Of a DNA stretch of 64,000 nt, positions 12,959 to 18,522 are shown piece after piece. The notes under the pieces are model-generated. The model did no database searches and was not told the DNA's origin. It saw only the letters and a program-made list of their open reading frames with translations. Where the stretch lies: positions 186,001 to 250,000 of the forward strand of contig DASQNC010000016.1 in NCBI GenBank assembly GCA_035645145.1, in the 5' to 3' direction. Both the position numbers and the translations under genes were made by a program. Source of the DNA: Azospirillaceae bacterium. Lineage in GTDB: Bacteria; Pseudomonadota; Alphaproteobacteria; Azospirillales; Azospirillaceae. How positions within the stretch are numbered: the stretch's first letter is position 1; every line of letters begins with the position of its first letter.

Positions 12959-13879
12959 TCAGTTGCCGCGGATCAGCGTGCCGACCCCGCCTTCGGTGAA
13001 GATTTCCAGCAGGACCGCATGCGGCACGCGGCCGTCCAGGATCACCGCCGCCCCGACGCCCTGCTCCACCGCCGAGATGCAGGTCTCCAGCTTGGGGATC
13101 ATGCCACCCGTGATGGTGCCGTCGGCCATGTAGCCCCGCGCCGCGGACAGGGTCATTTCCGGGATCAGGCGCTTTTCCTTGTCCATGACACCGGCCACGT
13201 CGGTCAGCAGCAGCAGGCGGTCCGCCTTCAAGGCGCCGGCCACCGCACCCGCCACCGTGTCGGCGTTGATGTTGTACGTCTCGCCGTCCTCGCCGACGCC
13301 GATGGGCGCGATCACGGGGATCAGGTCCGACGCGGCGAACGCATGCAGCAGCGTCGGGTCGACGGTGGCGGGCTCGCCCACGAAGCCGAGGTCGAGAGCC
13401 CGCTCGATGTTGCTGTCGGGGTCGCGCAGGGTGCGGGCGAGCTTGCGGGCACGGATCATGCCGCCGTCCTTGCCTGACACGCCGATGGCCCGGGCGCCGG
13501 CCTGGTTGATGGCGCCCACGATCTCCTTGTTGATGGACCCGGCCAGGACCATCTCGACGACCTCGACGGTCTCCTTGTCGGTGACGCGCAGACCGTCGAT
13601 GAAGTTGGACTTGATCTTGAGGCGGTCCAGCATGCGGCCGATCTGCGGCCCGCCGCCGTGGACCACCACCGGGTGCATGCCCACCTGCTTCAACAGCACG
13701 ATGTCGCGCGCGAACAGGCGGAACAGGCTGTCGTCGCCCATGGCGTGGCCGCCGTACTTCACCACCACCGTTCGGCCGGCGTAACGCCGCATGAAGGGCA
13801 GTGCCTCGGACAGGATCCGCGCCTTGGTCTGCCGGTCCTCGTCGGTCACGGGGGCGGCGGCGTGCAGCTTGTCGGACAT
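12959..13879 (-). CDS. argB: Acetylglutamate kinase
   Basis: 306 residues. ArgB phosphorylates N-acetylglutamate in arginine synthesis. Typical amino-acid-kinase motifs occur: [11 protein letters not shown] near residue 40, [10 protein letters not shown] near 75, and [10 protein letters not shown] near 200, with the C-terminal GVGTLIRGN. The N-terminal helix preceding the kinase core is of the type found in the longer, arginine-inhibited ArgB proteins; inhibition here is an inference. argJ, which makes the substrate, is about 47 kb away at 60.8-62.0 kb. ArgB and pgk are divergent; the ~250 bases between (13880-14130) show no gene or clear promoter. Confidence 0.96.
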
Positions 13880-14130
13880 GGCTCGGCCTTCAGCAAGCGT
13901 GGCGAGGTGGCGCCCGCCCCTTCTAACGGCGGGAACGGGAGGGCGCAACGGCATGGACGCGCGGCCCCGGCGCAAGATCCGGCGGCCGCGGATGCGGACG
14001 GGCCGCGCATCCCACCGCGCACCCCATGGGCCACCCCCTCCTGATGACCGCCGGGCGGGCGGTTGCCATTCGAATTTGGGTGTGCTTGCTTCCCCGCCCG
14101 AATCGCACCGCGCTTGACCGGAGACGCCCG

Positions 14131-15330
14131 ATGCCCCGCTTCCGCACGATCGACGACCTGGACGTTGCCGGAAAGACCGTCCTGCTGCGCGCCGATCTGA
14201 ACGTCCCCATGCAGGATGGCCGCGTTTCGGACACCACCCGCATCGACCGCCTGGTCCCGACCATCCGGGAACTGACGTCCAAGGGCGCCAAGGTCGCGCT
14301 CCTGTCCCATTTCGGCCGGCCCAAGGGCGGCCCCGACGAGAAGAACTCGCTGCGCCAGGTGCTGCCGGCACTGGAGCAGGCGCTGGGCACCAAGGTGGCG
14401 TTGGCTCCCGACTGCGTCGGCGAAGCCGCGGCCCAGGCGGTGAAGGCGCTCGGCAATGGTCAGGTGATCCTGCTGGAGAACACCCGTTTCCACGCCGGCG
14501 AGGAAAAGAACGACCCGGCATTGGCGAAGGGCATGGCGGCCCTGGGCGACATCTACGTGAACGACGCGTTCTCCGCCGCCCACCGGGCCCATGCCTCGAC
14601 AGAGGGCCTTGCGCATCTGCTGCCCGCGGCGGCCGGCCGGCTGATGCAGGCCGAGCTGGAAGCGCTGGGCCGCGCGCTGGAACATCCCGAGCGGCCGGTC
14701 GCGGCCGTCGTCGGCGGCTCCAAGATCTCGACCAAGCTCGACCTGCTGCTCAATCTGGTCGCCAAGGTCGACCTGCTGGTTCTGGGCGGCGGCATGGCCA
14801 ACACCTTCCTGGCCGCGCAGGGCGCCCAGGTGGGCGCATCCCTGCAGGAGAAGGACATGCACGAGCAGGCGCGTGCCATCTCGCAGCGCGCCAAGGAGCG
14901 GGGCGGCCGCATCCTGCTGCCCATCGACGCCGTGGTGGCGCCGCGGTTCGAGGCCGGCGTCGCCACGCGCACGGTGCCGATCGGCCAGATCGCCCAGGAC
15001 GAGATGATGCTGGACGTCGGCCCCGAAACGGTGCGCCTGATCGAGCGTGAACTGGCCGGGTGCAAGACCGTGGTGTGGAACGGCCCGCTGGGCGCGTTCG
15101 AGGTCCCGCCCTTCGACCAGGGCACCAAGGCGGTGGCGCGCATCGTGGCCGATGCCACCGCCGCCGGCCGGGTGGTCAGCGTGGCCGGCGGCGGCGACAC
15201 CGTCGCGGCGCTGGCCCACGCCGGCGTGGAGGACCGCATGACCTACGTGTCGGCCGCGGGCGGCGCGTTCCTGGAATGGCTGGAAGGCAAGGAACTGCCG
15301 GGCGTCAAGGCACTCGAACCCCAGGGCTGA
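14131..15330 (+). CDS. pgk: Phosphoglycerate kinase
   Basis: 399 residues. Pgk interconverts 1,3-bisphosphoglycerate and 3-phosphoglycerate with ADP/ATP in glycolysis and gluconeogenesis. Signatures are [10 protein letters not shown] near residue 18, SHFGRPKG near 60, the hinge, and the nucleotide-binding [11 protein letters not shown] near 350. Length is normal. It stands alone here, without gap, tkt or fba beside it. The ATG at 14131 is preceded by GGAGA; a longer in-frame reading from 14026 is non-homologous. Confidence 0.97.
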
Positions 15331-16064: not shown

Positions 16065-16403
16065 GTGGACAATGCCGGCGCCGGATGCGAGCCTGCGGCC
16101 GTGTTCCAGCGGCTCGTCCCATACCCGCCCGCCTATATCGAGGACGGCTCGGCACGGCTGTGCGACACGTTTCCGATCCATCCGGCCGAGTTGAAAAGGA
16201 CGAAGCAGTGGCACGCCACCGTCGGTGCCGTGCATGAGGTGGTCACCGCATCGCCCACAAAGGCCCATCTGGTCCTTCGGACCGCGACGCGGGTTCGGGA
16301 GGACGGTTCGCCGATAGAGACCGTGTCCGCCTTCCACGCCTTCACCCGCACGGACCAAGGCTGGAAAATACACCCCTTGTCGGCGGTCGTGATACCGGCC
16401 TGA
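16065..16403 (+). CDS. NTF2/SnoaL-like small protein, possibly 5'-truncated
   Basis: 112 residues from a GTG (alternative GTG at 16101). The C-terminal two thirds reads like the beta-sheet half of an NTF2-like fold: WHATVGAVHEVVTASPTKAH, then FHAFTRTDQGWKIHPLSAVV. The usual N-terminal helix (a FF..Y...L-type start) is missing, and no good ribosome-binding site was seen, so this may be a remnant or may begin elsewhere. In-frame reading continues upstream into the Nudix gene. Function unknown. Confidence 0.45.
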   Translation: MDNAGAGCEPAAVFQRLVPYPPAYIEDGSARLCDTFPIHPAELKRTKQWHATVGAVHEVVTASPTKAHLVLRTATRVREDGSPIETVSAFHAFTRTDQGWKIHPLSAVVIPA

Positions 16404-16415
16404 GGAAGGGCCAAT

Positions 16416-16458
16416 CCCGCCGTCCTCCCCTGCGCACAGGGCGGGATGGGACGGCGGG
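16416..16458. terminator. Bidirectional hairpin between convergent genes
   Basis: CCCGCCGTCC (16416-16425) pairs with GGACGGCGGG (16449-16458). An inner CCCTG/CAGGG pair (16428-16432/16437-16441) closes a four-base loop. It lies between the NTF2-like gene and the end of trpS. No T-run. Confidence 0.55.
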
Positions 16459-16470
16459 GTCCTCCCCCGC

Positions 16471-17487
16471 TCAGGCGAACGCGAACAGGCCCAAGGCCGT
16501 GCGAACCTCGTCGAGGGTCGCCTGCGTCACCGCCTGCGCCTGCCTTGTCCCCTCGCGCAGCACGTCCAGGACATACCCAGGGTCGCGGGCCAACCGTTCG
16601 CGCCGCTCCCGGATCGGGGCCAGCAGCGCCTGCAGGCACTCTTCCAGCCGGCGTTTGACGACGGCATCGCCCAAGCCACCGCGCTGGTACCGGTCCTTCA
16701 GTTCGGCCACCGCCGCCGCGTCCTCGTCGAAGGCGTCGAGGTAGGTGAACACCACATTGCCCTCCACCCGGCCGGGGACGCTGGCGCGCAGGTGGCCGGG
16801 ATCGGTGAACATGCGGCGCACGGCGTCCGCGACCTCGTCGGCCGAGGCCGACAGCGGGATCGCGTTGCCCAGCGACTTCCCCATTTTCGCCTTGCCGTCC
16901 ACGCCGGGCAGGCGGCCGACCGGCGGGACCAACGCCCGGGCCTCCACCAGCACGTCGCGGCCGGCCTGACGGTTGATGCGGCGGACGACTTCGTTCGTCT
17001 GTTCGATCATCGGCAACTGGTCCTCGCCCACGGGAACCAGTTCGGCCTTGAAGCCGGTGATGTCGGCCGCCTGCGCCACGGGATAGCACAGGAAGCCGGC
17101 CGGAAGCGCCCGCTCGAACCCGCGCTGGCGCACCTCCTCCTTGACGGTGGGGTTGCGCTCCAGGCGGGCCACGGTGACGAAGTTCAGGAACAGCATCGAC
17201 AGTTCCGCCAGGGCCGGAAGACGGGACTGGACGCAGATGGTGGATTTGGCCGGGTCGATGCCGACGGCCAGATAGTCCAGCGCCACTTCGATCACGTTGC
17301 CGATGACCTTGCCCGGAGCGTCGGCGTTGTCGGTCAGCGCCTGGGCATCGGCGAGCAGCAGGAACTGGCGGTGCGTGTCCTGCAACCGGACACGGTTCCT
17401 CAACGAGCCCGCATAATGGCCGAGATGCAGCGGGCCGGTGGTGCGGTCGCCGGTGAGGATGACGGGTTTTCGTGTTTCGACGGTCAC
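16471..17487 (-). CDS. trpS: Tryptophanyl-tRNA synthetase
   Basis: 338 residues. TrpS charges tRNA-Trp with tryptophan. It is a class I synthetase with the HIGH-type motif HLGH (in [11 protein letters not shown]) near residue 14 and the KMSKS-type motif KMGKS near 195. The GTG at 17487 is chosen: GGAG lies seven bases upstream and it begins [14 protein letters not shown] as in the short bacterial type. An ATG at 17535 would place the start just after the predicted terminator hairpin and add 16 residues without homology. Expression is probably governed by the leader-peptide attenuator at 17540-17668. Confidence 0.95.
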
Positions 17488-17539
17488 GGCGGGTCTCCGG
17501 TTGGACGCGCCGCCGTGGTCGATGACCGTTGCCACACAA

Positions 17540-17668
17540 GGAAACGGTGCAAGCCGGACCCCGGCGGCACCGTTCGTGTGGATGTCTGGACGAAGACAGA
17601 GAACGAGGCGCCGCTCCTTAGAAGGAGCGCCACCACATGCGGCCGGGAATCGTGGCTTGGTCTGTCAT
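17540..17668 (-). promoter_or_regulatory. Tryptophan leader-peptide attenuator of trpS
   Basis: In the minus-strand RNA four pairing segments follow one another. Protector: 17622-17629 with 17612-17619 (8 bp), covering the Trp codons' downstream side. Antiterminator: 17607-17614 with 17564-17571 (8 bp with one G-U). Terminator: 17567-17574 with 17543-17550 (8 bp) plus an inner 5-bp stem (17561-17565 with 17553-17557), then TTTCC. Antiterminator and terminator share 17567-17571, so they exclude each other. Ribosome stalling at the Trp codons should free the antiterminator and allow trpS expression. Confidence 0.8.
17618..17668 (-). CDS. trpS leader peptide (16 residues, tandem Trp)
   Basis: Reads [16 protein letters not shown] and stop. 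The two adjacent TGG codons are near the end, just before the protector hairpin, as in classical trp leaders. No Shine-Dalgarno is visible before the ATG, but the predicted transcription start falls at or next to the ATG, so translation may be leaderless. A second ATG directly precedes the Trp codons. Confidence 0.75.
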
Positions 17669-17675
17669 GCGTCGA

Positions 17676-17705
17676 AGGCTAGCACACGCCCGCGTGTGGG
17701 CTCAA
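17676..17705 (-). promoter_or_regulatory. Predicted promoter of the trpS leader
   Basis: On the minus strand TTGAGC (17700-17705) and TAGCCT (17676-17681) are 18 bases apart. Seven bases below the -10 is the leader ATG. The spacer contains the 7-bp inverted repeat CACACGC/GCGTGTG (17683-17698), which could be an operator or the end of the TSUP transcript. Confidence 0.5.
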
Positions 17706-17706
17706 T

Positions 17707-17728
17707 CCCGGTCCGGGCCCGGTCCGGG
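17707..17728. repeat. Exact 11-bp tandem repeat between the TSUP gene and trpS promoter
   Basis: CCCGGTCCGGG occurs twice head-to-tail (17707-17717, 17718-17728). Each unit is near-palindromic. The pair lies directly upstream of the predicted -35 element of trpS. Confidence 0.8.
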
Positions 17729-17730
17729 CG

Positions 17731-18522
17731 TCAGCGGAGCAGGCCGTCGAGCACCGGCAGTCCCAGAACGGCCGCCGCCGCGATCAGGGCGTAGCAGACA
17801 CGGCGGAACACCGCCTCGCTGGCGAGGCCGAACATGCGTGCCCCGAGCCAGATGCCGACCCCGTAGGCGGGACCGGCAACCGCGGCGAGGGCCAGCACCC
17901 GCACCGTCAGCAGGCCGCCGGCCAAATAGCTGGCTGTGGTCAAAAGGCTCGACGCCGCGAAATAGAGCATCAGGTTGGCCCGCACCGACTGCGCCGGACC
18001 GGCCCCGCCCAGCCAGTAGGCCACCACGGGCGGCCCGCCGACCTGGGCGGCGCCGCTGAGAAGGCCCGCAGCGCCACCGACCGAAAGCGTCAGCGGGACC
18101 GCCAACCGCCCGCGGTAGCGCCAACCCGACGCCAACAGGACGAGCAACAGGGCACACAAGGCGCAAAGTCCCCAGCGCAACGCCACCGGATCCACCTGCG
18201 TCAGGACCCAGGTGCCCATGGGTACGCCCAGGGCGGCGCCAAGCGCCATCACGGCAACCTCGCGCCGATCCGCCCGGACCCAGGCCCCGGGGATCAGACC
18301 GGCGGCCATGACGAGATCCATGACCAGCAGCAGGGGGACCGCGGTCCGGGGGCCGATGGCGGCACTGGCCAAGGGAACGAAGATCAGCGCGGCGCCGAAG
18401 CCCGAAAAACCGCGTGCGAGGCCGGCGACGAACCCGGCCACGAACAGGAAGGCCAGCACACCGGGTTCCACCGGCCCGAAGGCGCCTCCCCCGAAGACCG
18501 CGGACACCACAGGCTCCGTCAC
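17731..18522 (-). CDS. TSUP (TauE/SafE) family permease
   Basis: 263 residues with about eight hydrophobic spans. The N-terminal GFVAGLARGFSGFGAALIFVPL and the second-half SVGGAAGLLSGAAQVGGPPVVAYWL are the paired repeats of the TSUP family. These proteins move sulfite, sulfonates or organic acids across the inner membrane; the substrate here is unknown. The GTG start overlaps the stop of the upstream acyl-CoA ligase (GTGA), so the two are translationally coupled and may handle the same carbon compound. Confidence 0.88.
   Translation of the reverse strand: MTEPVVSAVFGGGAFGPVEPGVLAFLFVAGFVAGLARGFSGFGAALIFVPLASAAIGPRTAVPLLLVMDLVMAAGLIPGAWVRADRREVAVMALGAALGVPMGTWVLTQVDPVALRWGLCALCALLLVLLASGWRYRGRLAVPLTLSVGGAAGLLSGAAQVGGPPVVAYWLGGAGPAQSVRANLMLYFAASSLLTTASYLAGGLLTVRVLALAAVAGPAYGVGIWLGARMFGLASEAVFRRVCYALIAAAAVLGLPVLDGLLR

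Follow-up and report, generated by a model that had tools for sequence, protein, structure and literature searches.

The segment from 17705 to 17485 on the minus strand of the window (the whole 64,000-nucleotide stretch of Azospirillaceae DNA analysed here) is probably a tryptophan-sensing dual attenuator, acting on both transcription and translation, of an auxiliary tryptophanyl-tRNA synthetase (TrpRS). It carries a short leader ORF with two tandem Trp codons and five pairings that covary among relatives (2:3 weakly), and it precedes an auxiliary trpS gene. The general idea is already known, from TrpRS attenuation in Streptomyces and from the dual control of Bacillus subtilis vmlR; no description of the proteobacterial element, of its 3:5/5:6 arm or of its wide spread was found in the literature covered, which included few subscription papers and leaves such an absence unproven. 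The proposed switch would read the charging state of a tRNA and act at two levels, and it accompanies its gene on chromosomes and plasmids of soil bacteria and enterics. It may represent a general way for bacteria to hold a second aminoacyl-tRNA synthetase in reserve, unexpressed for as long as the main enzyme works. The leader ORF and structure should help to tell from sequence whether a TrpRS gene is a housekeeping one or an auxiliary, possibly inhibitor-tolerant one.

The downstream gene

The trpS gene (16471..17487, minus strand) encodes 338 residues and was assigned by profile and structure comparisons to the auxiliary, TrpRS-II type of tryptophanyl-tRNA synthetase. It passes the NCBIfam trpS cut-off (213 versus 176.75 bits), and the nearest solved structure is the Deinococcus TrpRS II (2a4m/1yi8) at 400 bits, with the next at 235 and most others at about 118-130 or less. 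The enzyme thus resembles Deinococcus TrpRS II more than it does housekeeping TrpRS, and its own genome holds a second TrpRS, of type I and 34% identical (G000:C16:21711-22694). The family's other 81 genomes (82 with this one, spread over 13 genera) gave only type-I-like matches and no TrpRS-II. Wider sampling shows a patchy occurrence, with TrpRS-II carried by 33 of 385 genomes of the class and 27 of 398 of the phylum; plasmids bear it too, among them those of rhizobia, Burkholderia and Klebsiella. Given the type-I copy elsewhere, the absence from the family, the patchy distribution and the plasmid copies, this trpS is, judged by its sequence, the auxiliary copy and not the housekeeping one, and it was probably acquired horizontally. 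The initial annotation had the attenuator controlling "its own synthetase"; a Trp-codon attenuator does precede trpS, but the enzyme is an auxiliary TrpRS-II beside a type-I TrpRS. No mobile element gene was recognised adjoining trpS, and the neighbouring acyl-CoA ligase gene, sought in five relatives for an empty site, lacked a close match in four of them. An argB-like gene and a phosphoglycerate kinase-like gene lie near trpS at 12959-15330 of the window.

The leader ORF and its predicted promoter

The 16-codon leader ORF (17618..17668, minus strand; ATG 17668-17666, TAA 17620-17618) ends in MWWRSF before its stop, as first described, and direct reading places the two tandem Trp codons that would act as the sensor at 17635-17633 and 17632-17630. 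As in trp-type attenuators, codons for the regulated amino acid thus stand in tandem in a short leader ORF, just before its stop. Conservation of these codons upstream of trpS, a check proposed together with the original reading, is borne out: a WW leader ORF lies 60-230 nt upstream in 62 of 110 TrpRS-II loci (taken at 57% identity or more, their upstream regions being searched for short WW ORFs), compared with 0.18% of shuffled upstream regions, and only one of 30 housekeeping trpS control loci has one. The part common to the leader peptides of 64 loci is only WW followed by 1-4 residues, the N-terminal part being variable; endings among relatives include WWRSF, WWRR, WWRA, WWLPA and WWLAC, and a few lineages have single-Trp leaders (YWRR, FYWPSP).

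A promoter is predicted at 17676..17705 on the minus strand, with a -35 box TTGAGC (17705-17700), an 18-nt spacer and a -10 box TAGCCT (17681-17676) that stands 7 nt upstream of the leader ATG. It matches the consensus weakly and is absent from the list of a consensus promoter and terminator scan, which returned no predictions for 16300-18100. The position of the -10 box is nevertheless conserved, ending 5-8 nt 5' of the leader ATG in 38 of 64 loci as against 9% in shuffles. A Shine-Dalgarno (SD) 4-mer precedes the leader ORF in only six of the 64 loci (58 have none) and precedes trpS in 61. The conserved -10 position and the lack of an SD before most leader ORFs make it likely that the leader mRNA is leaderless, with transcription probably starting at the leader ATG; the earlier proposal of such a start is thus strengthened by conservation, although the promoter itself remains a poor match that the scan did not list.

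Segments 1 to 4

Downstream of the Trp codons lie the pairings of a trp-type attenuator, all on the minus strand. Segment 1 (17622..17629), the 5' arm of the protector, forms 8 bp with 17612-17619 of segment 2 (17607..17619). Segment 2 may instead serve as antiterminator, its portion GCGGCGCC (17607-17614) forming 8 bp, one of them G-U, with GGTGCCGC (17564-17571) in segment 3 (17557..17574). Segment 3 is a hub whose partner may be 2, 4 or 5. With segment 4 (17543..17550) it forms the terminator-like 3:4 hairpin, in which AACGGTGC (17567-17574) pairs with GCACCGTT (17543-17550) over 8 bp plus an inner stem. The protector, antiterminator and 3:4 pairings are therefore those initially annotated, and their coordinates make 2:3 and 3:4 mutually exclusive, as had been proposed. 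Given the general footprint of a ribosome, they are so placed that one stalled at the Trp codons would mask segment 1 and one at the stop codon segment 2. The exclusive 1:2, 2:3 and 3:4 pairings are in this respect those of a trp-type device, with weak covariation in 2:3.

The region from the Trp codons to the trpS start (17636-17480) folds more stably than all 200 of 200 dinucleotide shuffles (z -4.43), in line with the folding-energy check suggested at the outset. Its minimum free energy (MFE) structure contains 1:2, 3:4, a third hairpin over the trpS start (5:6) and one small local hairpin. Covariation was assessed by exchanging segments between species within GC bins. The stems foreseen at the outset fared unequally in these swap tests: z is -8.6 for 1:2 and -12.3 for 3:4 (0 of 20000 permutations each), and only -2.4 for 2:3, whose pairs are nearly invariant.

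The 3:4 hairpin had been called a strong terminator, a description that finds no support in the window: the consensus scan found no terminator at 3:4, and the T stretch that follows it, TTTCCTT (5 T in 8), is enclosed by a longer stem in the MFE structure. As far as its sequence goes, 3:4 is here a poor terminator and the weakest part of the element. A U tract of at least 5 T in 8 follows 3:4 in 25 of 64 relatives, a rough count, as the automatic 3:4 search takes a longer 3:5-type stem in some loci; a clear tract is missing in Rhizobium, Bradyrhizobium and others. Its presence in many relatives argues for 3:4 as the OFF structure.

Segments 5 and 6: a proposed translational arm

The attenuator had been considered complete at 17540-17705. 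The element in fact reaches 17485, since segments 5 and 6 (17485-17520) constitute a conserved translational arm. Segment 5 (GACCACGGCGGC, 17509..17520, minus strand) lies just upstream of the trpS SD and can pair with segment 3, the loop at the tip of the 3:4 hairpin included. In the window, 11 of the 12 positions of GCCGCCGGGGTC (17568-17557) match it (17520-17509), and the own duplex reaches -28.7 kcal/mol. Segment 6 (17485..17498, minus strand) comprises the trpS SD GGAG (17498-17495) and the start GTG (17487-17485), and is paired in the 5:6 hairpin with 17503-17505 and 17511-17517. The 3:5 pairing excludes both 3:4 and 5:6, so that, as in the dual attenuator of vmlR, the hairpin that sequesters the SD comes last and cannot coexist with a competing pairing further upstream.

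Both pairings covary strongly. Own 3:5 duplexes have a mean of -22.9 kcal/mol across 64 loci, compared with -16.2 for species swaps (0 of 20000 permutations), and the own 5:6 pairing averages -12.1 versus -8.8; within GC bins z is -12.0 for 3:5 and -8.3 for 5:6 (again 0 of 20000 permutations each), and the six control pairings 1:3, 2:4, 1:5, 2:5, 4:6 and 3:6 were null in the same GC-binned tests. In a gap-free alignment of 25 loci, 90% of the 3:5 cells are paired as against 29-72% on slid versions, 56 cells show changes on both sides compared with 20.7 in shuffles, and the six 3:5 pairs outside the anchoring motif are 80% paired versus 52.8%. RNAalifold, applied to an unconstrained MAFFT alignment, returned 1:2 plus 3:5 as the consensus. 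Two loci in which the segment-3 anchor was wrong (L094 and L101) were left out of alignment A4, and alignment A3 was used only for the covariance model because L033 is misaligned in segment 5. The 5:6 complementarity (ATCGAGG/CCTCGAT) is preserved in L091 (upstream of 3001), whose leader is related to the Massilia-type one and has about 100 additional bases separating segments 5 and 6.

These results bear on two rival explanations. The earlier model of transcription attenuation only, in which 3:4 is the terminator and both segment 5 and the start-codon hairpin are incidental, accounts for the conserved leader, WW codons and 1:2/2:3/3:4 logic and for the good U tracts of several lineages, but it leaves 3:5 and 5:6 covarying as strongly as 3:4 and 1:2, and has to contend with the want of a clear U tract in Rhizobium, Bradyrhizobium and others and of a consensus terminator in the window; we consider it quite improbable. 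A purely translational device in this organism, with a non-terminating 3:4 that keeps segment 3 hidden, and the trpS start thereby shut in 5:6, until stalling frees 3 for 3:5, would suit the weak, stem-enclosed T tract and the strength of 3:5 and 5:6 in the window. It sits less well with the short TTTCCTT after the 3:4 stem and with the clear terminators of related lineages, and we regard it as unlikely, if somewhat less so than the former. Under the dual attenuator that we prefer, the poor terminator of the window, Rhizobium and Bradyrhizobium suggests that control in these cases may be exerted mostly through the translational arm.

Proposed mechanism

We propose that transcription would start at the leader ATG and that a ribosome on the leader would then meet the two Trp codons. 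With Trp-tRNA plentiful, this ribosome would reach the stop codon and cover segment 2, or be released to let 1:2 form; segment 3 would pair with 4 and transcription would tend to end, while any read-through transcript would fold segment 5 onto the trpS SD and start (5:6), switching translation off too. When Trp-tRNA is scarce, through tryptophan starvation or inhibition of the housekeeping TrpRS, the ribosome would be expected to stall at WW and mask segment 1, leaving segment 2 to hold 3 (2:3) while RNA polymerase continues; the emerging segment 5 would then capture 3 (3:5) and be kept from 6, so that the trpS ribosome-binding site would be open. Stalling, the order and kinetics of these exchanges and the direction of the response are what we infer from this architecture.

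Equilibrium folding indicates where the order of events would matter. With a ribosome masked at the Trp codons 2:3 is not favoured and 3:4 wins in the window, so the antitermination step there would have to rest on co-transcriptional kinetics. For some Rhizobiales the full leader adopts 3:5 at equilibrium with no stalled ribosome present, and the OFF state would consequently need kinetic trapping. An opposite translational polarity, whereby segment 2 in holding 3 would free 5 for 5:6 and stalling would lower translation of the read-through mRNA, draws on the equilibrium folds of L142 and L131, where freeing segment 2 lowers 3:5. Such a response would cut the supply of enzyme just when charged tRNA runs short, working against the transcriptional arm, and we think it very unlikely; 3:5 is, moreover, more stable than 2:3 (means of about -22 versus -15 kcal/mol), from which an exchange to 3:5 is to be expected.

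Distribution and association with a second TrpRS

Among the alpha-, beta- and gammaproteobacteria, such a leader precedes about 65 TrpRS-II loci. A covariance model built on the alphaproteobacterial element has a single match in its own genome, the present locus (E 1e-19). Of 21 further carrier genomes searched, 14 gave a match upstream of TrpRS-II, among them groups outside the training set (G544, Vibrio-type, and G754, Burkholderia-type); strong matches occur only adjoining TrpRS-II. Rfam gave no match in the whole window at curated cut-offs, nor in 17300-17800 at an E-value limit of 1, and a T-box riboswitch, for which the leader shows no Rfam match, was rejected. The protein tree gathers the 70 loci that bear a leader into one 100-row clade (SH-aLRT 97), and members in which no leader was recognised are nested inside it.

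Presence of the leader goes with presence of a second TrpRS. The leader occurs in 54 genomes with two TrpRS and two with a sole TrpRS, and is absent from four with two and 30 with a sole one (Fisher p 3e-17, a value that counts genomes many of which are related). Independent tree pairs give a mean of 5 in the expected direction and 0.1 in the opposite one (sign test, median p about 0.06), so that the phylogenetically corrected association is only suggestive. In the genomes of Acinetobacter, Cupriavidus and Methylophilaceae tested, TrpRS-II is the only TrpRS and the leader was not recognised, nor was it found in the sole-TrpRS small-genome alphaproteobacteria and Chlamydiae in which it was sought. 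We give about even chances to the broader proposition that the element represents a widespread, unnamed proteobacterial RNA family that would couple codon stalling to translation initiation through the hub segment 3 with its three partners, that in this organism and many Rhizobiales would serve chiefly for translation attenuation in response to an amino acid, and that accompanies an auxiliary, mobile TrpRS but is largely missing from cells in which TrpRS-II is the sole TrpRS.

The same observations weigh on the view that the leader chiefly supplies an RNA or peptide acting in trans, as the rhizobial rnTrpL/peTrpL does, with control of trpS secondary. The predicted leaderless start and terminated RNA do resemble rnTrpL (PMC7298713), but the free variation of the N-terminal part around a conserved WW plus 1-4 residues, the confinement of strong covariance-model matches to the vicinity of TrpRS-II and the want of a recognised leader in most lineages with a sole TrpRS-II make this view hardly credible beside a cis-acting attenuator of trpS.

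Several individual loci deserve mention. In the Massilia-type L149 (G727), one of the two exceptions to the association, TrpRS-II is the sole TrpRS and a WW leader is kept. L162 (G653:C1:3312666-3313809), of the Bradyrhizobium-like family f171, has its TrpRS-II spread over two overlapping frames, probably by a frameshift, downstream of an intact leader element (covariance-model E 1e-22). L164 (G745:C1:1386673-1387410) is a degraded TrpRS-II with two in-frame stops in a genome with an intact type-I TrpRS and further TrpRS-II fragments elsewhere. TrpRS-II genes also occur on Staphylococcus plasmids (L171 and others), with no Rfam match in the stretch searched. The AT-rich plasmid L166 (NZ_CP107771.1), recorded as 'Streptomyces griseorubiginosus', carries a TrpRS-II that matches the query at the level of the staphylococcal plasmids, and the record is possibly mislabelled or contaminating. 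For the 'Streptomyces' plasmid match H50, also AT-rich, the stretch examined contains no Trp leader, which makes the match uninformative on trpRS1.

Comparison with known systems

Attenuators of trpS have been predicted or reported in Streptomyces (PMC1262725; PMC8079986), including in a 2010 J. Bacteriol. study cited as reference 57 in PMC4787780. S. coelicolor trpRS1 and S. lividans trpL2-trpS resemble the present locus in placing an auxiliary TrpRS, with a short Trp leader, beside a housekeeping one, and in both an antibiotic-resistant auxiliary enzyme is under ribosome-mediated transcriptional attenuation. The S. lividans trpL2 (MMTRTCTQLWRAA) transcript is leaderless (PMC8079986), as is likely for the leader here. 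These systems, compared by their published description, differ in being actinobacterial and in the single Trp codon of trpL2, and no 3:5/5:6 arm was found in the parts of the descriptions available, the 2010 study aside.

The B. subtilis vmlR leader (PMC9226507) shares with the device proposed here a ribosome stalled on a uORF, an anti-antiterminator, a terminator and a last hairpin that sequesters the SD and is opened by an alternative pairing in the read-through RNA. It differs in that stalling is caused by antibiotics acting on the ribosome and not by lack of a charged tRNA, and in serving a resistance ABCF gene of Bacilli. The rhizobial trpL/rnTrpL of trpE(G) also has tandem Trp codons in its trpL ORF, which is leaderless, as is likely here, going by the portion of the source available (PMC7298713), and the Bradyrhizobium trpL peptide MSTAVAPARLWWRTS resembles the WWRST of trpS leaders. 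It differs in controlling biosynthesis and in yielding a trans-acting RNA and peptide, and no SD-sequestering arm was found described in that portion; rnTrpL, furthermore, lies upstream of trpE(G), whereas the gene downstream here is trpS.

Among Proteobacteria, ribosome profiling of Caulobacter crescentus revealed a small translated CDS before trpS, an alphaproteobacterial arrangement like that seen here, although the CDS alone was reported (PMC4117421) and the likeness is one of description. The suggestion that such control may not be standard for alphaproteobacterial trpS must therefore be qualified: Streptomyces attenuators are published and a leader CDS has been seen in Caulobacter, but no description of the proteobacterial trpS element was found in the literature covered. 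Salmonella trpS2 (STM4508) is of the same TrpRS-II type, and no regulatory mechanism for it was found reported in the literature examined. In biofilms it is reported to go up 2-fold, as does the trp operon (PMC2805695), and its presence has been offered as the reason for the insertion tolerance of the housekeeping trpS (PMC3487940). Read from the sequence, a Salmonella trpS2 orthologue has the leader MNMKRSNATQRHLRWWLPS and all of the pairings. One Salmonella locus, L173, lies on an apparently chromosomal 501-kb contig (AGRM01000005.1) that is filed among phage records.
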